This document shows, piece after piece, positions 33,893 to 51,411 of a stretch of 61,738 nt of DNA. Numbering within the stretch: the stretch's first letter is position 1; the number at the start of each line of letters is the position of its first letter. The notes beneath the pieces were generated by a model. The model searched no databases. It had not been told where the DNA came from and was given only the letters and a program-made list of their open reading frames with translations. A program made the position numbers and the translations under genes. Origin of the DNA: a virus; the IMG/VR virus record IMGVR_UViG_3300033144_001147, positions 1 through 61,738 of that record. One strand, 5' to 3'.

Positions 33893-34175
33893 ATCTTTTT
33901 ATTTTAAATTTTAATACATTACATTTCGGGTACAAATACTGAAGAATCTTAAGTCTATGATTTCCTTGAACCACCCAATACTTTCCTTCTTTCTTAGTAA
34001 CCTCTATTAATTCTTTTAATCCGTTATTATCTATATCGTGCAAAAGCCCAGTCCAATCATAACCTCTATCATTAGTTATTAACTGATGTATAGTGTAATT
34101 AGTAAAGTCTCCATTAATATCACAAAGTCTAATATACTCTGTAGTATACTGACTTTTATAATATTTTTTACTCAT
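33876..34175 (-). CDS. ParB/sulfiredoxin-like domain protein, 99 aa
   Basis: The core DWTGLLHDIDNNGLKELIEVTKKEGKYWVVQGNHRLKILQYL (40-80) matches the ParB N-terminal-type fold: GLxxPIxV..., then the nucleotide-binding GNHR motif in place of GxxR. No HTH domain, so it is not a complete ParB. Lone domains like this occur in phages with unproven CTPase or DNA-nicking roles. It sits between groEL and groES and overlaps both (8 and 17 bases), an odd insertion in the chaperonin operon. Confidence 0.75.
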   Translation of the reverse strand: MSKKYYKSQYTTEYIRLCDINGDFTNYTIHQLITNDRGYDWTGLLHDIDNNGLKELIEVTKKEGKYWVVQGNHRLKILQYLYPKCNVLKFKIKRYETNR

Positions 34176-35790
34176 CCTTATTTATTCTCGCGTGAGTAAT
34201 TATAGCGTTAGTAGTTAATATGGTAGTAGCTACACTAATAGCGTTAGACAATGCTTGAGTGGTTACTCTTGCTGGATCAATAACCCCCATATCAAACATA
34301 TTTCCATACTCTCCTGTTACCACGTTATATCCTATATTCTTTTTTTGTTTAGTAGTAAGGCCTCCTTCTGGAAGATTAGGAATAAACCCTGGCTTATCAT
34401 ATATATCTTTTTTATCTAATCCTGCATTTTTTAGAATTTGACGTAAAGGAGCTTCTAAAGCTTCTTTTAATATTTTATGAGAAGTCTTTTTGCCATTATA
34501 AGTTTGAGCTATATTGTATAATAACAACCCTCCTCCTGGCACAATTCCTTCTTGAAGGGCACTGCGCACCGCGCATACCGAGTCATCGACTCGGTCAAAT
34601 TTTTCTTTTTGTTCTATGTCAGATGTAGCACCTACATGTATACATCCTATCCCTCCAACTAAAGAAGCTATTCTTTCATTAATAAAATCCTTCTCATGTT
34701 TAGCTGTTAATCTTTCTTGTTGGTCTCTTAATTCTTCTACTCTATCAATAGTCTCATTAGTAATCTCTCCGTCTTTAATAATGATAGTAGAGTCTTTACC
34801 TACTATAATCTTATCTGCATGCCCTAAGTCTTCCATTCTAATTAGAGATAAATCATCTCCTGTTTTTTCAGAAAAGTATTTAGCTCCTACAGAAAATGCT
34901 ATGTCTTGCATTAACTCGTGAGTTTTATATCCAAATGACGGAGGTTGTATATTACAAAACTTTAATCCATTTCTTTGAACATTGGCTGCCATTGTATTAA
35001 TAACATTCTGTCCGCAATCTCCAATAATTAAAAGCTTGTCTCCCGCATTAATAATAGGTTTTAATATATTCTCAATTTGTAATATGTTACTAATCTCTGA
35101 ATCACATATAAGAATCTTCACTCCTTCATATACACACTCGTCTTTTCTTTGGTCATTAATAAACATAGGAGAAGTCCATCCTCTATCTACTTTAATACCA
35201 TTAGTTACTTCAGCAAAAGTCTTATCTGTTTGAGATCGCTCTACAGTTACTATCCCATCTTTACCAACTTCTTTATATGCTTTAGCTATAATCTCACCAA
35301 TCTCTTTATCATTATTCGCAGAGATGGTTGCTATATCTTCTAACATATTCTCAGTAACCTCAACAGCCTCTGTCTTTATTTTATTATCTATTATCTCTCC
35401 TTGAACTCTGAGCTCTCTAATTATTTTAATTTTATTATCTCCTTCTTTTATATGTTTCTGACCAGCCTTCACTAAAGCTTCAGTTAATACAATAGCAGTA
35501 GTTGTTCCATCACCAGCGGTATTAGCTGTTTTTTCAGAAGCTTGTTTCATCATTCTAACCGCAAGGTTTTCGATTGGGTCAATAAGAGATATTGATTTAG
35601 CTACAGTTACTCCATCTTTAGTAACGGTTAATCCTTGAGTATGTTCTGTTGATTCTATCAATACAGTTTGCCCTTGAGGGCCAAGAGTTGATTTAACTGC
35701 ATTAGATATTTTAGAGATTCCCGAGGTAAGCTTTGTTCTTGCGTCTTCATTAAACGCTAAGTCTTTTGGAATGTATCCAGAGTCTTTCAT
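34168..35790 (-). CDS. groEL: Phage chaperonin GroEL, 540 aa
   Basis: Full-length group I chaperonin: SNAVKSTLGPQGQTVLIE (29-46), TKDGVTVAKSI, and the ATP-binding GDGTTTAIVLTEALVKAG with the DGTTT motif (about 92-109); GIVPGGGLLLYNIA and the C-terminal equatorial domain (VVTGEYGNMFDMGVIDPARVTTQALSNAISVA) follow. The flexible GGM-repeat tail is absent; the protein ends ITHARINKDE. Codon use looks like its neighbours, so transfer is not recent. A TATCTTTG element lies 32-39 bases upstream, and the duplicated TGTCGA element adjoins it. It likely folds phage proteins. Confidence 0.95.
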   Translation of the reverse strand: MKDSGYIPKDLAFNEDARTKLTSGISKISNAVKSTLGPQGQTVLIESTEHTQGLTVTKDGVTVAKSISLIDPIENLAVRMMKQASEKTANTAGDGTTTAIVLTEALVKAGQKHIKEGDNKIKIIRELRVQGEIIDNKIKTEAVEVTENMLEDIATISANNDKEIGEIIAKAYKEVGKDGIVTVERSQTDKTFAEVTNGIKVDRGWTSPMFINDQRKDECVYEGVKILICDSEISNILQIENILKPIINAGDKLLIIGDCGQNVINTMAANVQRNGLKFCNIQPPSFGYKTHELMQDIAFSVGAKYFSEKTGDDLSLIRMEDLGHADKIIVGKDSTIIIKDGEITNETIDRVEELRDQQERLTAKHEKDFINERIASLVGGIGCIHVGATSDIEQKEKFDRVDDSVCAVRSALQEGIVPGGGLLLYNIAQTYNGKKTSHKILKEALEAPLRQILKNAGLDKKDIYDKPGFIPNLPEGGLTTKQKKNIGYNVVTGEYGNMFDMGVIDPARVTTQALSNAISVATTILTTNAIITHARINKDE

Positions 35791-35821: not shown

Positions 35822-35829
35822 CAAAGATA
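35822..35829 (-). promoter_or_regulatory. TATCTTTG promoter element of groEL
   Basis: Minus-strand TATATCTTTGCA, 32 bases before the groEL ATG. A TTG lies 15 bases upstream (35845-35847), too close for a normal -33 box. The first TGTCGA-type site (35851-35864) is just upstream, in operator-like distance. Confidence 0.6.
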
Positions 35830-35850
35830 TAAAAATAATAATTACAATTG

Positions 35851-36029
35851 TGACGGTATGTCGAAATAAATTTTCTATATTGTATATATATATAACTCTC
35901 CTATCTCTATATATATTTTTATATATTTTGTATTTCAAATCGACATATCGACATAAATAAATATAATAGATTGAAAATCAATAAGTTAGTTTGTGTCGTT
36001 TTTTTTTACAAAGTGGAATCTTGTGTCGA
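35851..36029. repeat. Origin-like repeat locus A (TGTCGA sites flanking AT-rich core)
   Basis: Copy A of an element also present at 46457-46627. Parts: a first site TGACGGTATGTCGAAATA (35851-35868); an AT-rich core to 35939 containing (TA)n; an inverted double site TCGACATATCGACA (35940-35953); the string TCAATAAGTTA (35978-35988); further sites at 35994 (imperfect) and 36024. Spacing from first to second site is 90 bases (93 in copy B), and from second site to TCAATAAGTTA 37-38 in both. It lies upstream of groEL and beyond the terminator of the 72-aa gene. A replication origin with an unwinding element or an operator array are the two main options. Confidence 0.75.
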
Positions 36030-36045
36030 TGTTTGACATAGATAT

Positions 36046-36106: not shown

Positions 36107-36325
36107 TTAGAACTCTAACTCTCTCCAGTTCTTTTTATCTTCAGCTAATTCTATACCTTCAGCTATTCTATTTATTTTTCTATCGTTTGTTACTGCTCTT
36201 TTGATACGCGCGGCTTTTGCTATACCGGTTTCTCCATCTCTTCTTTCGTTCATTAGTCTTCCGTCTTTAACATAAAGTCCGTCAACGTTGTCAGATCCAA
36301 TAAAAGGGTTTGTCATTTTTTTCAT
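36107..36325 (-). CDS. Small charged protein, 72 aa
   Basis: MKKMTNPFIGSDNVDGLYVKDGRLMNERRDGETGIAKAARIKRAVTNDRKINRIAEGIELAEDKKNWRELEF: Arg/Lys/Glu-rich helix after a short N-terminus. Not recognised. It is the first leftward gene next to the divergent intergenic region, with its own TATCTTTG element and terminator, so it is a single-gene transcription unit. A small regulator is possible. Confidence 0.7.
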   Translation of the reverse strand: MKKMTNPFIGSDNVDGLYVKDGRLMNERRDGETGIAKAARIKRAVTNDRKINRIAEGIELAEDKKNWRELEF

Positions 36326-36349: not shown

Positions 36350-36840
36350 AAAATTTTTTTAGATGTCTGGGGGTTGAGGGTTATTATAGGTGATACGATG
36401 GAAGTCCGGTATAGAAAAGTGATTTGTTTTTTGGGGGTGGGGGTGTTGTTTTCAAAATTTCCAGTCCGATTTTTTGGGGTTTTTCTGGTGGTGGTTGGTT
36501 GTGTGTGTGTGTGTCTGGTTGTGGTGGTGGTTGTGGTGGTGGTTGTTCCTCTGTCTGTCTGTCTGTCTGTCTGTTTCTCTGTCCGTCCGTCCTCCTTCCC
36601 TCGTTCCGTTCGAAGATCTTAAATAATATGTATATAAATACATTAAATTGTTAAACCTTCCCCCAATTAATCGACTAAATAAAACATTTAGACACTGAAA
36701 GAAAGGGAATAATACCCCCACGAACACACCGAAACACAAACAAAACACCAAGAAAACACAAATTTTTTTTCTCTCTAACTACCTGAACATCAACAACTTA
36801 AAAATTATTTTCACACTGGGACAAAAATAAAACAAAAATT
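36350..36840. other. Noncoding divergent region with G/T-only low complexity
   Basis: About 490 bases without a convincing gene between the leftmost leftward promoter and the first early promoter. From about 36420 to 36600 the plus strand is almost only G and T, then C and T: runs of G (36369-36373, 36435-36445, 36475-36478), TG/GGT repeats (36485-36545), six tandem CTGT units (36551-36574) and GTCC triples (36581-36592). The remainder (36620-36840) is A-rich with long A/C stretches. Candidates: replication origin, G-quadruplex or triplex-forming element, or packaging signal. Open frames here are composition artefacts. Confidence 0.7.
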
Positions 36841-37227: not shown

Positions 37228-37229
37228 AA

Positions 37230-37283
37230 GTTAATCTGATGAGGACTAAATGTCCGAAACTGGAAGAAATTCCAGTCATTAAC
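37230..37283 (+). ncRNA. Hammerhead ribozyme HHR-1 (type I)
   Basis: All conserved core bases are present. Stem I GTTAAT / ATTAAC (37230-37235 with 37278-37283); core CTGATGA (37236-37242); stem II GGAC-TAAAT-GTCC (37243-37255); GAAA (37256-37259); stem III CTGGAA-GAAA-TTCCAG (37260-37275); then TC with cleavage predicted after C37277. Ends open at stem I, so type I. It lies between the 101-aa gene (stop 37225-37227) and the lipoprotein gene (ATG 37309), so cleavage leaves a 31-base 5' leader for the latter. Confidence 0.95.
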
Positions 37284-37308
37284 AAATAATTAAATAAATA
37301 AAAAAGTT

Positions 37309-37842: not shown

Positions 37843-37971
37843 ATGAACTACCAAGAAAATGAAATATCGTATTGTGTAAACTATAAAGGACAAAAAATAA
37901 AACCTTATAGGAGTTTACCGACATTACCTAAACCGAGTTTAATTAGAAGAATAATAAACTTTTTTAAGTAA
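37843..37971 (+). CDS. Micro-protein, 42 aa
   Basis: A short ORF: MNYQENEISYCVNYKGQKIKPYRSLPTLPKPSLIRRIINFFK. Basic, with a possible amphipathic C-terminal helix (SLIRRIINFFK). It starts 1 base after the stop of the 91-aa gene, and its stop codon is part of stem I of ribozyme HHR-2, so a ribosome terminating here would melt the ribozyme. Confidence 0.6.
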   Translation: MNYQENEISYCVNYKGQKIKPYRSLPTLPKPSLIRRIINFFK

Positions 37972-38021
37972 TACTGATGAGTGTTTAATACACGAAACTG
38001 GTAGAAATACCAGTCTATTAC
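37968..38021 (+). ncRNA. Hammerhead ribozyme HHR-2 (type I)
   Basis: Stem I GTAATA / TATTAC (37968-37973 with 38016-38021); core CTGATGA (37974-37980); stem II GTGT-TTAAT-ACAC (37981-37993); GAAA (37994-37997); stem III CTGGTA-GAAA-TACCAG (37998-38013); TC with cleavage predicted after C38015. Same 54-base size as HHR-1; every difference within the stems is compensated on the other strand. Stem I contains the TAA of the 42-aa ORF; the next gene starts 25 bases after the cleavage site. Confidence 0.95.
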
Positions 38022-38039
38022 AATAAAAAATATATAAAA

Positions 38040-43631: not shown

Positions 43632-43925
43632 ATGAAGAAACGTATTTTTGATCTTTACGCAACGGAAATAGCCAAGCAATTCCATCTGACACTCGATCAG
43701 ATGTTTACTAAAACAAAGAAAAGAGAGATAGTAGATGCAAGACAAATCTTGTATTACTTATGTATGGAGCGTCCTATTAGAATATCTTATATTCAAAGGT
43801 TTATGGAAGAAAACGGACATCATATTTCTCACTCTACTATTATACACGGATATAAAAAAGCAAAACAACTTATTGATGATGATAAGGATTTTGAAGAAGT
43901 AGTTAATAAAATTCAGAATGTATAG
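43632..43925 (+). CDS. DnaA domain-IV-like DNA-binding protein, 97 aa
   Basis: The sequence KKREIVDARQILYYLCMERPIRISYIQRFMEENGHHISHSTIIHGYKKAKQLI (28-80) follows DnaA domain IV: R-x-x-x-x-A-R-Q-x-x-x-Y-L, then HxTIIHxxxK in place of the family D-H-S-T-V. This is the HTH domain that reads DnaA boxes. The AAA+ ATPase is missing, so it cannot act as a full initiator; it may bind an origin or regulate transcription. First gene after PE3. A second such protein lies at 50983-51411. Confidence 0.8.
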   Translation: MKKRIFDLYATEIAKQFHLTLDQMFTKTKKREIVDARQILYYLCMERPIRISYIQRFMEENGHHISHSTIIHGYKKAKQLIDDDKDFEEVVNKIQNV

Positions 43926-44325
43926 TATAGAAGATGTGTTTGAACAATCTCAAAAAGATCATCACGCAATTATCACGGACAAAGGAGCAATCAACAATGG
44001 AGTAAAAATACAAAAGTTCCCCTCCAAAACCGAGATCTTAAATTGTGGGAGGAGTGGAGATTATTTTCAAGAGTGTAATAAAGAAGAGTATAAAATTTTT
44101 TTTAAGTATGGATGGAAGGAAGGAGGGTTAAGACTATCAATGTTGAATTGCAAAAGAAAGTTAGACATTGTGGAGCATAAAATAAAGGCTGAAGTAAATA
44201 CAAGAAAGAATGATAAACATATACAAAGATTAAAAAATACAAGAGAGTCTTTATTAATAAAATATTCAAATAGAAATCAACAATTAAATAAATTAACAAA
44301 TGGAAAAAAAGAAAAACATTTTTAA
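43918..44325 (+). CDS. Early protein, 135 aa
   Basis: A mixed N-terminal half (MYSIEDVFEQSQKDHHAIITDKGAINNGVKIQKFPSKTEILNCG) and a basic helical C-terminal half (RKLDIVEHKIKAEVNTRKNDKHIQRLKNTRESLLIKYSNRNQQLNKLTNGKKEKHF). It overlaps the DnaA-like gene by 8 bases and the annealing-protein gene by 26. Possibly an accessory of the replication or recombination proteins. No family recognised. Confidence 0.72.
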   Translation: MYSIEDVFEQSQKDHHAIITDKGAINNGVKIQKFPSKTEILNCGRSGDYFQECNKEEYKIFFKYGWKEGGLRLSMLNCKRKLDIVEHKIKAEVNTRKNDKHIQRLKNTRESLLIKYSNRNQQLNKLTNGKKEKHF

Positions 44326-44911
44326 GGAATTATCATCCATATCTATAAAAGGTAAAACCGATAAGAAAGGAAAGTTTGATTATTTATCATGGGCTTCAGC
44401 GTGGAGTATGATTAAATCAGAACACCCTGAAGCACAAAGAAAAGTATATGAGTCTCAAGAAACTGGACTTAACTTTTTTACTGATGGTAAAACTGCTTAT
44501 GTAAAAGTAGGTATAACTATAAATAATTTAGAGCATATAGATTATTTACCAGTAATGGATTACCGAAACAACTCAATATCTATGGATAAGATTAATTCTA
44601 TGGATGTTAATACAGCCATTCAACGATCTACTGCCAAGGCAATTGCGATGCACGGATTAGGATTAAGTTTATGGATAGGAGAAGATACTATAATAACAAC
44701 TAAACCGGTTTCAACTCCATCCAGTAAAACTCCTACACCAACAAAAGATGCTAAAATAACTTTAGATATAGGAGATAACAACTGGGGTAAGGTATTAAAA
44801 TATATAGCTTCTAATAAAGAATTAGGATTACCTAAAATAGTAAAGAATTTAGAGACTAAATATAATATAAAGGCGGTAGTAAAAAAAGAACTCTCAAAAC
44901 AAATTAAATAA
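44300..44911 (+). CDS. Single-strand annealing protein (DUF1071/Sak-like), 203 aa
   Basis: KGKFDYLSWASAWSMIKSEHPEAQRKVYESQ (24-54), VKVGITINN...YLPVMDYRNNSI and NTAIQRSTAKAIAMHGLGLSLWIGED (about 105-130) are hallmarks of the DUF1071 phage recombination proteins, which anneal complementary single strands in Red-like recombination. Residues 139-150 form a Pro/Thr-rich linker; a small C-terminal helical domain follows. It sits upstream of a PD-(D/E)XK nuclease and an SSB-like gene, the usual set. Confidence 0.88.
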   Translation: MEKKKNIFKELSSISIKGKTDKKGKFDYLSWASAWSMIKSEHPEAQRKVYESQETGLNFFTDGKTAYVKVGITINNLEHIDYLPVMDYRNNSISMDKINSMDVNTAIQRSTAKAIAMHGLGLSLWIGEDTIITTKPVSTPSSKTPTPTKDAKITLDIGDNNWGKVLKYIASNKELGLPKIVKNLETKYNIKAVVKKELSKQIK

Positions 44912-45246
44912 TGGAAAAAATACCGGGGATAAAAGCTTTAATTAAAGATAAATTAGATAAACTTAACTGGGTTCAATGGGATGGATCAGGGATTACCAGT
45001 GAAGAGGGTTTTGTAGTTTGGGTAGACTATATGGAAAATATAGGGGTAGATAAAGATACTAATCAACTCTTAATTAATATAAAGTATAAAGGTCAGCCAG
45101 TATACACAACCGCAACTACTGATAAAGATACTATGGATTATTTTGGTGTATGGTATATGCAGTTAGGAGATATAATAAACGAGAGAAATGAAAAGAGAGA
45201 TAAGGAGGCGGAGGAAGAGGGTAAAATAAAATTTGAAAAACTATAA
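44911..45246 (+). CDS. Recombination-module accessory protein, 111 aa
   Basis: MEKIPGIKALIKDKLDKLNWVQWDGSGITSEEGFVVWVDYMENIGVDKDTNQLLINIKYKGQPVYTTATTDKDTMDYFGVWYMQLGDIINERNEKRDKEAEEEGK. Alpha/beta with an acidic C-terminus. No family recalled. One-base overlap with the annealing-protein gene and 2 bases before the nuclease start, so it may be part of the recombination complex. Confidence 0.72.
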   Translation: MEKIPGIKALIKDKLDKLNWVQWDGSGITSEEGFVVWVDYMENIGVDKDTNQLLINIKYKGQPVYTTATTDKDTMDYFGVWYMQLGDIINERNEKRDKEAEEEGKIKFEKL

Positions 45247-45247
45247 T

Positions 45248-45985
45248 ATGGATAAAGACTTACAATTATTAAAAGAGGATGAACATTATTACGGAAAGTT
45301 TGGAAAACAATTTTTATCTAATTCCGATATAATCACTTTACTAAACGATCCTAAAAGTTTTGGAACTGAAAAGGTTATGACAAAGGCTATGTTGATTGGA
45401 AGATATTTTCATACAGCAATGTTGGAGCCGGAGAAAATTGATAGTGTAGAATATTGGACTATTGATGCTTCCAGTAGAAATACTAAAAAATACAAAGAAG
45501 AACTACTCCATTACAAAAGGCCTTTAATGATGTTGTCTAAAGAAAAGATTGAGATTGATAAAGCTATCAGTACTATGAAAAACAATTTGGAATTTTATGA
45601 GTCAATATATGATGAAGAAAATGAGTTCGAAGTTCCTGCAATACACGAGGTAATGGGAATGAAATGGAAGGGAAAGGCGGATATAGTGGGAAAAGATTTT
45701 TTAATTGATCTAAAAACTACATCTAACATAAAAGACTTTAAGTATAGTGCGAGAAAATATAACTATGATAGTCAAGCGTATTTATACCAACAATTCTTTA
45801 ATAGACCTCTTGTTTTTTATGTGGTAGACAAACTAACGTTTGAGTTAGGGATATATCATCCCTCTGAAACTTTTTTAAGTTATGGAAAAGATAAAGTTGA
45901 ACGAGCAATAGAAGTATATAAAAAATTTTTTAGCAATGAATCTACGGAAGATATTGAAACTTATATTATTAAAGAAATACTTTAA
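45248..45985 (+). CDS. PD-(D/E)XK exonuclease (RecB/RecE-like), 245 aa
   Basis: Start at ATG 45248 (MDKDLQLLKEDEHYYG), rather than the TTG five codons upstream, which overlaps the previous gene. The N-terminal FLSNSDIITLLNDPKSFG is the QxxxY-like entry of phage RecE-type nucleases. The core EVMGMKWKGKADIVGKDFLIDLKTTSNIKDF (about 132-162) gives the acid GKAD, then ID-LKTT, and YDSQAYLYQQFF follows as the QAxxY motif. It degrades DNA ends to single strands for the annealing protein. Confidence 0.88.
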   Translation: MDKDLQLLKEDEHYYGKFGKQFLSNSDIITLLNDPKSFGTEKVMTKAMLIGRYFHTAMLEPEKIDSVEYWTIDASSRNTKKYKEELLHYKRPLMMLSKEKIEIDKAISTMKNNLEFYESIYDEENEFEVPAIHEVMGMKWKGKADIVGKDFLIDLKTTSNIKDFKYSARKYNYDSQAYLYQQFFNRPLVFYVVDKLTFELGIYHPSETFLSYGKDKVERAIEVYKKFFSNESTEDIETYIIKEIL

Positions 45986-46108: not shown

Positions 46109-46372
46109 ATGGCAGAAGAAAAAATCTATGTCGGAAGTGGAACTTCCAAGTTTGATGGGAACTTAATCTCATGTAGTGTTTGTTTAACTGATTTACCTCA
46201 AGAACACATGTTCGAGTATAATGGTAAAAAGTATATCAAACTAAATGTATCAGCTAAAAAAGATGGGGCTGATGAGTATGGTAAAACTCATTATTTAGCT
46301 GTAGATACTTATAAGCCTGAACCGAAAAAAGAGCCGGTTGCAACAAAAGAAGAGGAAGACTTACCATTTTAA
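46109..46372 (+). CDS. SSB-like single-stranded DNA-binding protein, 87 aa
   Basis: A short beta-rich domain (ISCSVCLTDLPQEHMFEYNGKKYIKLNVSAKKDGADEYGKTHYLAVDTYKPE) and an acidic tail ending EEEDLPF. A terminal D-(I/L)-P-F is the protein-interaction tip of bacterial SSB. The core is shorter than a usual OB fold (about 60 vs 110), so this is SSB-like in function rather than a proven homologue. Last gene before the terminator and locus B. Confidence 0.72.
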   Translation: MAEEKIYVGSGTSKFDGNLISCSVCLTDLPQEHMFEYNGKKYIKLNVSAKKDGADEYGKTHYLAVDTYKPEPKKEPVATKEEEDLPF

Positions 46373-46378
46373 TCTTTA

Positions 46379-46447
46379 CTCCTTGACAAAGGATAGGGGG
46401 CTTTAGACTGGGCAGTAACGAAGAACAGGTATCCCCCTATTTTTTTG
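46379..46447 (+). terminator. Intrinsic terminator with a long structured loop
   Basis: CCTT-GACA-AAGG hairpin (46381-46392), then an 8-bp stem ATAGGGGG / CCCCCTAT (46393-46400 with 46433-46440) enclosing 32 bases, followed by six or seven T residues. It ends the recombination unit. The long loop and the extra hairpin suggest a more complex RNA than a plain terminator. Confidence 0.8.
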
Positions 46448-46456
46448 TCTTTTTTG

Positions 46457-46627
46457 TGTCGATATGTCGAAATAGGTAGGCAATTATATAGTAATTATGT
46501 TTTTTTATTTTATTTATATAGTTTATTTTATTTATTTTTTACTTATTATTGACATATCAACATAAGAAATATATAAAGTAGTAGTAGTCAATAAGTTAAA
46601 TAAAAATAAGTCGACATAAAATCGACA
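46457..46627. repeat. Origin-like repeat locus B (TGTCGA sites flanking AT-rich core)
   Basis: Copy B of the element at 35851-36029. Parts: TGTCGATATGTCGA (46457-46470, two direct TGTCGA 8 bases apart), an AT-rich stretch to 46549, an inverted, slightly degenerate site TGACATATCAACATA (46550-46564), TCAATAAGTTA (46588-46598), then TCGACA at 46611 and 46622. Order, orientation and spacing equal copy A within 3 bases. It lies between the recombination terminator and the primase-helicase gene, a natural place for an origin or a regulatory operator; no TAnnTTTG promoter was found there. Confidence 0.75.
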
Positions 46628-46646
46628 CAATACCAACACTTAACAA

Positions 46647-49058
46647 ATGGAAATAACAATATTTAAGGATATTAAGGACACTTCTCAGCCTTTTTATAGA
46701 GATGTAAGTATAATAATAGAAAGAATACAAGAGGGAGCATCACAAGAGATAGTAAGAGCAATACGATTAGAAAAAGATAAAGAAAAAAGAAATCTATTAA
46801 AGCAGTCATTACCGGCTATTTGTTTTAGTGGTAAATTTACAAAAAGAAATGATGCTTCTTTAGTAGAACATAGTGGGATAATATGTTTAGACTTTGATGG
46901 CTATGAGTCAGACAAACTTTTACTGGAAGAGAAGGAGAGAATAACAAAAGATCGCTATACTTATTCGGTTTTTATTTCTCCAAGTGGGTTAGGATTAAAA
47001 GTGTTAGTCAAGATACCTGCCGAGCCTGATAATCATAAAAACTTTTTCAACTCTCTTGAAAAACATTACGACTCTCCTTACTTTGATAAGACTTGTAAAA
47101 ATGTTTCAAGAGTTTGTTATGAGTCATACGATCCATTAGTGTTTCTTAATGAGCAGTCCAGTGTATTTAATCAAATTACTGAACAAGAATACCAAGAGGT
47201 AGTTAAACATAAAGGGGTTCAAACTATTCCTATTACGGATGAGAATAAAATAGTAGAAATATTATTTAAATGGTGGGAGAGAAAATATGGATTAAAAAAT
47301 GGAGAAAGAAATAATAACGTATATATACTGGCTTCAGCCTTTAACGATTTTGGAGTAAATAAAACATTAGCTGAATACATAATGAATGATTTTGCTACTA
47401 ATGATTTTCCTTTATTAGAGGTTAAAAGAACTATTAATTCTGCTTACGCACAATCTCAAAACTTCGGAACAAAATATTATGAAGATGAAGATAAGGTTAA
47501 TAAGGTAAAACAACAACTTCGAAGAGGAATAACGAAGACTAAAATAAAACAAGAGTTAGAGGAGAATACTGATGTAGATGATTCAGTAGTGGTATCAGTT
47601 ATTGAGAGATTAGAAGAAGAACAATCTCAACAAAAATTTTGGAGTAAGAGTGAGAAGGGAGTAATAAACATCGTCCACATTTCTTTTAAGAAATTTTTAG
47701 AAGAGAATGGATTTTACAAATTCAACCCTGAAGGAAGTAAAAACTATGTATTTGTAAAGGTTACTAATAACTTAATAGACCATACTTCAGAAAAAGAAAT
47801 AAAGGATTTTGTTCTTACTTACCTTTTAGACGTGGAGGATATCAGTGTATATAATTATTTTGCAGAAAAAGTTAAATACTTTAGAGAGGAATTTTTAACC
47901 CTTCTTTCTTCTATTAATGTTTATTTTATAGCCGACAACAAAGACACAGCGTATTTGTATTATAATAACTGCGCGGTAAAAGTAACAAAAGAGGATGTAA
48001 CTCCTATAGATTATTTAGATTTAGGAGGGTATGTATGGAAAGACCATGTTATAGATAGAGTCTTTGATATATGTGAGATTACCGATTGTAACTACAAAAC
48101 ATTTGTAGGAAATATTGCAGGAGGAACCGAAAAAAGAATAAGGTCTATGGAATCCACTATAGGTTTTTTACTTCACGGATGGAAGAACCTTTCTTATTGT
48201 CCGGCTACTATTCTTAATGATGAACTAATTTCAGACAACCCTGAAGGAGGAACTGGAAAGGGGTTGTTTATGACTGGATTAGGTCAAATGAAAAAACTTG
48301 TAGTGATTGATGGTAAATCTTTTAATTTTGAAAGATCATTTGCATATCAATTAGTTTCAGCCGACACGCAGATACTTTGTTTTGATGATGTAAAAAAACA
48401 CTTTGATTTTGAAAGATTGTTTAGTGTAGTAACGGAAGGCCTCACTCTTGAAAAGAAAAATAAGGACGCTATTAAAATTCCCTTTCATAAATCTCCTAAG
48501 ATTGCCATAACTACTAATTATGCTATTAAGGGATCCGGTAGTTCGTTCGAAAGAAGAAAGTGGGAATTAGAACTTACTCAATATTATACTAAAGAGTTTA
48601 CACCTCTTGTAGAGTTTGGTAAATTAATGTTTGGAGAATGGGGAGACCACGATTGGTGCCAGTTTGACAACTATATGATAGGATGCCTCCAATTATATTT
48701 AGACAAAGGATTATTAAAAAGTGATTTTGTTAATCTTAAAACGCGTAAGTTCTCTGCAGAAACCTGTCACGAATTTGCAGAATGGTGTGGGGCTATAGGA
48801 GGACAAAAAACCGATAAGCTTGTCCGTAATAAAAAGATATATAAAAACGATTTATATTTAGATTTCATTGATGAGAATCCTGATTTTGCTCCTAAATCTA
48901 AAATGACAGTAAGTAGAAATAGATTCAACAAATGGCTTCAGTCTTATTCTGATTTTAAATACGACTGCAAGGCAACCGAAGGTCGCGATGGAGTAGGAAG
49001 ATGGATAGAGTTTGTTCATAAATCTCATTACGATACACAAAGTGAGATGGGTCTATGA
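46647..49058 (+). CDS. Primase-helicase with BT4734/VirE-N domain and SF3-type ATPase, 803 aa
   Basis: Residues about 1-180 (MEITIFKDIKDTSQPFYRDVSI...GIICLDFDGYES...YSVFISPSGLGLKVLVKI...RVCYESYDPLVFLN) form the BT4734/VirE-N domain of Bacteroidota mobile elements and phages, thought to be primase-related; the LDFDGY acids and SPSGxGxK motif are visible. A helical PriCT-like link follows (about 205-275). The C-terminal ATPase has Walker A EGGTGKG (about 532-538), Walker B ILCFDDV (about 575) and sensor KIAITTNYAIKGSGSS. It would prime and unwind phage DNA. It stands next to locus B and overlaps the next helicase gene by 4 bases. Confidence 0.87.
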   Translation: MEITIFKDIKDTSQPFYRDVSIIIERIQEGASQEIVRAIRLEKDKEKRNLLKQSLPAICFSGKFTKRNDASLVEHSGIICLDFDGYESDKLLLEEKERITKDRYTYSVFISPSGLGLKVLVKIPAEPDNHKNFFNSLEKHYDSPYFDKTCKNVSRVCYESYDPLVFLNEQSSVFNQITEQEYQEVVKHKGVQTIPITDENKIVEILFKWWERKYGLKNGERNNNVYILASAFNDFGVNKTLAEYIMNDFATNDFPLLEVKRTINSAYAQSQNFGTKYYEDEDKVNKVKQQLRRGITKTKIKQELEENTDVDDSVVVSVIERLEEEQSQQKFWSKSEKGVINIVHISFKKFLEENGFYKFNPEGSKNYVFVKVTNNLIDHTSEKEIKDFVLTYLLDVEDISVYNYFAEKVKYFREEFLTLLSSINVYFIADNKDTAYLYYNNCAVKVTKEDVTPIDYLDLGGYVWKDHVIDRVFDICEITDCNYKTFVGNIAGGTEKRIRSMESTIGFLLHGWKNLSYCPATILNDELISDNPEGGTGKGLFMTGLGQMKKLVVIDGKSFNFERSFAYQLVSADTQILCFDDVKKHFDFERLFSVVTEGLTLEKKNKDAIKIPFHKSPKIAITTNYAIKGSGSSFERRKWELELTQYYTKEFTPLVEFGKLMFGEWGDHDWCQFDNYMIGCLQLYLDKGLLKSDFVNLKTRKFSAETCHEFAEWCGAIGGQKTDKLVRNKKIYKNDLYLDFIDENPDFAPKSKMTVSRNRFNKWLQSYSDFKYDCKATEGRDGVGRWIEFVHKSHYDTQSEMGL

Positions 49059-50713: not shown

Positions 50714-51023
50714 TGTAGCCGAAGACTTTATAGAGACTCTTCAGCAACTTGATATTCGTACCGGAATTAAAATAGCTAAGTTTATTGAGAAAAACGTAGA
50801 TCAAGTTCCGGTCAGCCTACTAACCTCTACAATATTAGGCGGGGTAATTATTGATGATAACAAAAATCCTGTTACCTTTGCTTTAGAAATGCTTAAAATA
50901 AATAAAGTTATCATTCTGTCTGATATAAAGATGGTAGAGATGGACGAATATTTAGATTTACTCAACTTAAATTCAGACTTAAATGGTATCCGAAAAAGTA
51001 AAGGCAATAAAAAAACTAATTAG
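50673..51023 (+). CDS. Early protein, 116 aa
   Basis: Helical protein (EAGYDVAEDFIETLQQLDIRTGIKIAKFIEKNVDQVPVSLLTSTILGGVIIDDNKNPVTFALEMLKINKVIIL). No family recognised. Overlaps the nuclease and the following DnaA-like gene by 41 bases each, so translation is probably coupled. The start may lie later. Confidence 0.65.
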   Translation: MDVKRKYIKEAGYDVAEDFIETLQQLDIRTGIKIAKFIEKNVDQVPVSLLTSTILGGVIIDDNKNPVTFALEMLKINKVIILSDIKMVEMDEYLDLLNLNSDLNGIRKSKGNKKTN

Positions 51024-51411
51024 TTCTCATTACGAAATTGATATTGAGGCTAAAACTAAAGCCTATAATTATGTAAAAGCCAGAGCCATGGCCTACACAT
51101 TAATGAGAGAAAAATGCCTGATGTCTTATACAAGTATCGGATTAGCCTTTAAAAAAAATCACGCAACTATACTTCATGCGGTAAAAGAATTTCCTTTTAT
51201 GAGGAAATGGGATAAAGAATTAAACAGAGATTATAATGATATCCTGGTGTTATGGGAAGGAGAATCGGGAGAGTATGAAGATGTAAAGCCTCTTCAATTA
51301 AAAAAACAATTAAAATATTTGGACGAACAAAATAAATTGTTAAATTTGTCATTAAATAATGTTCAAGAAGAGTTGGAAGAAATCAAAAGAATAATTAAAA
51401 ATGGGAAATAA
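50983..51411 (+). CDS. Second DnaA domain-IV-like protein, 142 aa
   Basis: EAKTKAYNYVKARAMAYTLMREKCLMSYTSIGLAFKKNHATILHAVKEF (22-70) has the domain-IV plan: an R-A-x-A-Y-x-L helix, then S-Y-x-x-I-G..F.KNHATILHA in place of DHSTVxHA. A C-terminal coiled coil follows (QLKKQLKYLDEQNKLLNLSLNNVQEELEEIKRIIKNGK, about 105-142). Again no ATPase. With the 97-aa protein this gives two origin-box-reading domains in one phage. It may dimerise through the coil. Confidence 0.75.
   Translation: MVSEKVKAIKKLISSHYEIDIEAKTKAYNYVKARAMAYTLMREKCLMSYTSIGLAFKKNHATILHAVKEFPFMRKWDKELNRDYNDILVLWEGESGEYEDVKPLQLKKQLKYLDEQNKLLNLSLNNVQEELEEIKRIIKNGK

Follow-up and report, generated by a model that had tools for sequence, protein, structure and literature searches.

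The window analyzed here, a 61,738-base virus record (IMGVR_UViG_3300033144_001147), contains an element of repeated half-sites around an AT-rich middle, which lies directly before a primase-helicase gene and is duplicated upstream. This raises the question of what such a pair does in the phage. The original prediction offered paired origins, paired silencers, or recombination sites able to excise or invert the early block between them, and suggested that transcription of the replication genes may depend on a factor bound at the copy beside the primase-helicase gene (copy B). The first and last 114 bases of the record are identical; thus, it is probably a complete, circularly mapped phage genome. 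A megablast of its 36-52 kb region against phage records gave no match. Relatives of the primase-helicase are spread over hundreds of viral contigs (469 confirmed stretches). The genome collection yielded only three contigs with such a relative, all from metagenome-assembled genomes; this distribution gives no sign of integration, and in at least two of the three the element precedes the gene.

Organization of the two copies

Copy B (46457-46638) sits between the terminator of an SSB-like gene and the start codon of the primase-helicase gene, and copy A (35851-36038) has the leftward groEL gene on one side and a small gene, also leftward, on the other (Table 1). Each copy is built on a box-to-box module of 103-106 bp. 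The TCAATAAGTTA motif follows the right box at the same spacing in both copies, as it does in the A copies of most relatives, and the extra half-sites of copy B keep an 11-bp period up to the primase-helicase start codon. A search of the phage's own genome with 46441-46646 matched a single further stretch, 35848-35988, on the same strand (68% identity, E 1.1e-8), which bears out the duplication in one orientation that had been claimed; the longest run of identical bases shared by the two copies is 12 bp. The 14-mer tandem pair TGTCGATATGTCGA occurs twice in the whole genome, once per copy, against 0.07 expected. When 33-50 kb was scanned for the geometry without a motif (inverted 14-15-mers separated by 98-110 bp, with an AT-rich middle), copy B ranked first and copy A second.

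The surroundings of copy B are also as originally described: the element sits directly before the primase-helicase gene, a strong terminator precedes it (RNA fold -23.8 kcal/mol, z -2.3, then a U tract), and no TAnnTTTG promoter is found on the + strand of 46376-46646. The copies had been said to flank exactly the early block. They do enclose the block, but the leftward gene and a GT-rich tract are enclosed as well. This low-complexity tract (36425-36600; GGTGGTGG..., TGTCTGTCTG...) separates the leftward from the rightward transcription units. The sign of the GC skew switches near copy A, but the skew also tracks gene direction and transcription and is thus uninformative on the origin.

Table 1 Positions of the two copies, their parts and the neighboring genes in the window
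Feature	Position	Strand	Remarks
Phage-encoded GroEL	34168-35790	leftward	PF00118; adjoins copy A in most relatives examined
Copy A left box, TGACGG-TA-TGTCGA	35851-35864	+	
Copy A AT-rich middle	35865-35939	.	75 bp, 87% A+T
Copy A right box, TCGACATATCGACA	35940-35953	-	
Copy A TCAATAAGTTA motif	35978-35988	+	
Copy A extra half-sites	35994-36038		TGTCGT 35994-35999 (+), TGTCGA 36024-36029 (+), TTGACA 36033-36038 (-)
Small leftward gene	36107-36325	-	Lies between copies A and B
Orphan DnaA domain-IV protein D1	43632-43925	+	PF08299 E 5.9e-10; kept in relatives
Sak-type single-strand annealing protein	44300-44911	+	PF06378 E 6e-31
Recombination exonuclease (exonuclease VIII-like)	45233-45985	+	phrog_412 E 1.6e-24, PF12684
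Small putative SSB-like protein, acidic DLPF tail	46109-46372	+	5' of copy B; from translation
Intrinsic terminator of the SSB-like gene	46376-46452	+	Directly 5' of copy B
Copy B left box, tandem half-sites TGTCGA-TA-TGTCGA	46457-46470	+	
Copy B AT-rich middle, proposed unwinding element	46471-46548	.	78 bp, 88% A+T
Copy B right box, inverted tandem half-sites TTGACATATCAACA	46549-46562	-	
Copy B conserved TCAATAAGTTA motif	46588-46598	+	25 bp past right box
Copy B three extra half-sites	46611-46638	-	TCGACA 46611-46616, TCGACA 46622-46627, CCAACA 46633-46638
Primase-helicase, proposed initiator	46647-49058	+	803 aa; phrog_28855 E 2e-289, PF08800 E 2.6e-21
C-terminal winged helix, proposed origin-binding domain	48843-49013	+	Residues about 733-789; AF2 fragment pLDDT 87.7
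Wing residues 780-785	48984-49001	+	
Orphan DnaA domain-IV protein D2	50983-51411	+	PF08299 E 8.1e-12; kept in relatives

Conservation and loss among relatives

For 25 further genomes and the annotated Manatee Spring phage MW202828, we read the groEL side and the sequence upstream of the primase gene; most of these carry the module at both places. Overall, the duplicated plan is present in most of roughly 37 genomes read, out of hundreds of initiator-encoding contigs. The outer length of the module hardly changes (A, 104.3 ± 1.5 bp, n=22; B, 104.05 ± 1.9 bp, n=20) around middles of 73-96% A+T that diverge in sequence, while anything from 22 to 89 nt separates the module from the start codon; in G029 its length is still 104 bp although the half-sites have become TTCCA-like. 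An inserted gene displaces copy A in G005 and copy B in G014, and G026 is without copy B at the primase gene. Upstream of the primase in the elemo, Panino and phi46:1 phages, no similar element was seen by eye.

Copy B is wholly missing in lineages such as L049, L075, L175, L204 and L299. These lineages keep the terminator, and the primase-helicase start codon stands 11-16 nt past its T tract; therefore, transcription must read through the terminator there. This speaks against the suggestion that the replication genes depend on a factor bound at copy B, and, together with the missing TAnnTTTG sequence, it rules out copy B as a promoter. Copy A is kept in all B-less genomes with the groEL side read (L075, G031, G033, G034, G035, G037, G039, G041), with half-site letters of its own, such as TGTCGT, TCTGCCA or TTTGGAATA. 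Because the B-less lineages keep A, we regard copy A as the constant element and copy B as optional. L052 and L054 hold at B only the TCAATNAGTTA motif and half-sites, without the 104-bp module; since this part is kept alone, the second part of copy B may have a separate, possibly autoregulatory role.

Two of the relatives without copy B, L154 and L066, have a tRNA-like sequence in the gap between the SSB-like and primase genes, ending in GGTTCGATTCCTCTTTTGGCGCCA in L154; ARAGORN did not call these stretches as tRNA.

Half-sites match within a genome

The half-site letters differ between genomes (for example, TGTCGA becomes TGACGA, TGTTCA or TTGGAA), yet the two copies of one genome match each other. 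Within a genome, the A and B boxes show 82% identity, compared with 57-59% for A-B, A-A and B-B pairs across genomes (Mantel r 0.82). Copies A and B share 13.0 7-mers within a genome and 5.4 between genomes (p<=5e-5). The boxes behind module length, box identity and the residue-785 counts given below were chosen by eye; the k-mer test and the geometry scan use no such boxes and agree with these results. The spacers behave in the opposite way and follow ordinary descent, with higher alignment scores for A-A of different genomes (19.6) than for A-B of one genome (15.3). Because gene conversion would take the spacers with it, whole-copy conversion is rejected as the source of the A-B likeness. 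Only the binding sites change together, and this points to one DNA-binding protein that co-evolves with both copies.

The wing of the primase-helicase covaries with the half-sites

A scan of 2,759 columns of the conserved early proteins for association with half-site bases placed residue 785 of the primase-helicase first for base 4, which is T or C (adjusted eta-squared 0.672, two residue types). When 35 relatives were added, the association of residue 785 was 0.75, against 0.48 for the next primase column. Among 86 relatives, 39 combine R785 with C and 33 combine K785 with T, 10 have mixed sites, 3 (L007, L011 and L017) are discordant and 1 is unreadable; thus, 72/75 clear-cut relatives are concordant. 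For base 3, residue 783 ranks third and residue 780 seventh among the scanned columns; an early two-class comparison for this base had given scattered columns and was replaced by the full scan.

On a tree that omitted the C-terminal part of the primase-helicase, only 3-4 phylogenetically independent pairs carry the K/R-T/C switch in the same direction, and 0 in the opposite one, in nearly all pairings; a sign test on so few pairs cannot reach 0.05. In a windowed partial Mantel scan, linkage to neighboring genes dominates, and the peak inside the primase falls on residues 781-795. Column 51 of D2 tracks base 4 nearly as well as residue 785 (0.657 vs 0.672; 35 sequences, 8 residue types), and D2 may contribute to half-site recognition. 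On this comparison of sequences, the primase-helicase is the best candidate for the co-evolving half-site binder.

The protein comprises an N-terminal BT4734-like domain, a helicase core and a C-terminal winged helix, and AlphaFold2 places residues 780, 783 and 785 in the wing of the last; the helicase core of the model is of low confidence (pLDDT below 50). Searches with the model gave weak Foldseek matches to AsfvPrimPol (E 2.6e-5), RepB' (2.8e-3) and the SaPI5 primase-helicase (0.035), and a weak match to poxvirus D5/E5. Placing the protein among the D5-like AEP/SF3 primase-helicases (PrimPol-helicases), with an AEP-type primase domain and an SF3-type helicase, is tentative. The winged helix matches the P4 origin-binding domain 1ka8 at Z 5.0, level with unrelated winged helices, and a sequence search of the primase against the PDB returned chance matches only.

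Comparison with known replication systems

In satellite phage P4, the alpha protein is a primase-helicase with a C-terminal winged-helix origin-binding domain, and two distant sites, ori1 and crr, bear its iterons. The present phage is alike in having a primase-helicase with a predicted C-terminal winged helix and two distant iteron-bearing sites; this is a likeness of plan, and the fold match is generic. P4 alpha and its ori site are named in PMC6092414, according to which PICI origins always consist of two iteron sets flanking an AT-rich region; in SaPI Rep proteins, the C-terminal domain binds the origin iterons (PMC7581432). The element shares with these systems the two iteron sets around an AT-rich region and an initiator helicase, sometimes primase-fused, encoded alongside (PMC6092414; PMC7581432), and the covariation of the wing lends indirect support to iteron binding by a C-terminal domain. 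However, the single PICI origin lies immediately 3' of rep, a position that neither copy has: copy B is 5' of the primase-helicase gene and copy A about 10.6 kb away beside groEL. Also unlike PICI, the element is duplicated, in a 62-kb phage, and its iterons are paired and inverted within a module of fixed 104-bp length.

The oriL and oriR of SPP1 are about 13 kb apart and both bound by one phage protein; they are thought to act as a start site and a fork barrier, the latter triggering concatemer synthesis with help from an annealing protein, an exonuclease and SSB (PMC6316719). Here too, one phage genome has two similarly organized copies (direct repeats and an AT-rich DUE in SPP1; the DUE is putative here), and annealing-protein, exonuclease and SSB-like genes are present, in this case between the copies. 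In contrast to SPP1, in which gp38 is a separate binder working with the loader gp39 and the DnaB-type helicase gp40, binder, helicase and primase appear to be fused, the covarying protein being the primase-helicase itself. Whereas oriL lies inside gene 38, the proposed origin here is intergenic.

A model of paired origins and its alternatives

We propose that copies A and B are probably two replication origins recognized by the phage's own primase-helicase. Among the options of the original prediction, this one is best supported, because of the fixed 104-bp iteron/AT-rich architecture, the within-genome co-evolution of A and B, and the wing covariation. The C-terminal winged helix would bind the half-sites at both ends of the AT-rich stretch, so that two helicase assemblies would face each other across about ten helical turns; the stretch would then melt, and the fused helicase and primase would start a fork, assisted by the SSB-like neighbor and perhaps by a host polymerase. 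The Sak and exonuclease genes between the copies could aid a switch to concatemer synthesis, as proposed for SPP1. Judged from retention alone, copy A is probably the main origin, since all lineages examined keep it, and copy B, lost in several lineages, probably serves either as a further origin or, next to the initiator gene, as a bound barrier and autoregulatory site.

Could the copies instead be operators, through which a phage transcription regulator controls the groEL/late promoter at A and the primase-helicase gene at B, the sites co-evolving with that regulator? Copy A does touch the leftward groEL promoter (TATCTTTG near 35829) on its upstream side, the extra half-sites of B extend to the primase start codon, the remnants in L052 and L054 dispense with the module, and D2 column 51 also tracks base 4. 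Yet what is fixed is the box-to-box length, whereas the distances from box to promoter and from box to start codon vary; copy B contains no TAnnTTTG promoter, the B-less relatives express the primase gene from just behind the terminator, and the top covarying column belongs to a replication enzyme, not to a regulator. We therefore consider operators as the whole explanation unlikely; a silencer or operator role may exist beside the origin role, notably at copy A. It is less probable still that the half-sites are DnaA-box-like and bound by D1/D2, which would recruit the primase-helicase. Both proteins lack an AAA+ domain and are encoded around the replication genes, with positions conserved in nearly all relatives, and we take TGTCGATA to be like the DnaA box TGTGGATAA at most positions; but D1 hardly varies in its recognition helix (HSTIIHGYKKAK) while the half-sites change, and L007 and L012 differ in their half-sites despite near-identical D1 and D2, so D1/D2 are not supported as the specificity protein. 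The two proteins may instead recognize TCAATAAGTTA, which is invariant, or DnaA boxes of the host.

Paired inverted sites at a fixed distance would suit any bridging complex, including a partition, packaging or other non-replicative complex bound by a phage protein; given the location at the primase-helicase gene and the covariation with that very protein, such a site is very improbable. Least probable of all is excision or inversion of the block by recombination, site-specific or homologous, between the two copies. Two copies in one orientation with Sak and exonuclease genes between them would be a suitable setting, but at 68% identity they share no exact match beyond 12 bp, their spacers are not homogenized, and block and copies keep the same order in every one of about 25 relatives, which speaks against this part of the original prediction.

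Beyond the single phage, the proposed paired origins suggest a wider picture that we offer tentatively and hold to be somewhat doubtful as a whole. In a widespread group of Bacteroidota-type phages, replication may start from a PICI-like origin in duplicate, with a small number of wing residues in the primase-helicase fixing the iteron address (785 K/R for base 4 T/C). Each lineage would then have a private, mutually incompatible pair, with A obligatory and B evolutionarily optional, tuning or switching replication. As the iteron letters track an identified protein segment, the putative recognition code is open to direct testing by simple swaps. The replication origins of many uncultured phages would thus become predictable from sequence.

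Other features of the early region

The product of 46109-46372 had no family match in profile searches, and its SSB-like nature is suggested by its translation. The loop of the terminator behind this gene (46390-46447) is long and contains GACYGGGCAGTAAMGAAGAACRGGTATCC, which L004, L005 and L014 share; in other relatives the loop is short. The long-loop form may be a regulated terminator.

Two hammerhead-ribozyme-like RNAs, 37228-37290 and 37966-38025 (+), lie between small early genes, each with the pattern CUGAUGA...CGAAAC, a third stem, and GUC ahead of the closing stem I. The first scores 29.1 bits against the Rfam family RAGATH-1-hammerhead, below the threshold of 56.3. The two RNAs may cleave the early transcript into mRNAs of one gene each, in line with a proposal made for prophages (PMC3088659). 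A run of N (withheld or masked bases) breaks one such element around 6044 (-) of L111. A pattern scan found one to several candidates per genome in many relatives (early blocks L083-L112), and up to about 9 in G027 (loci L111 and L112).
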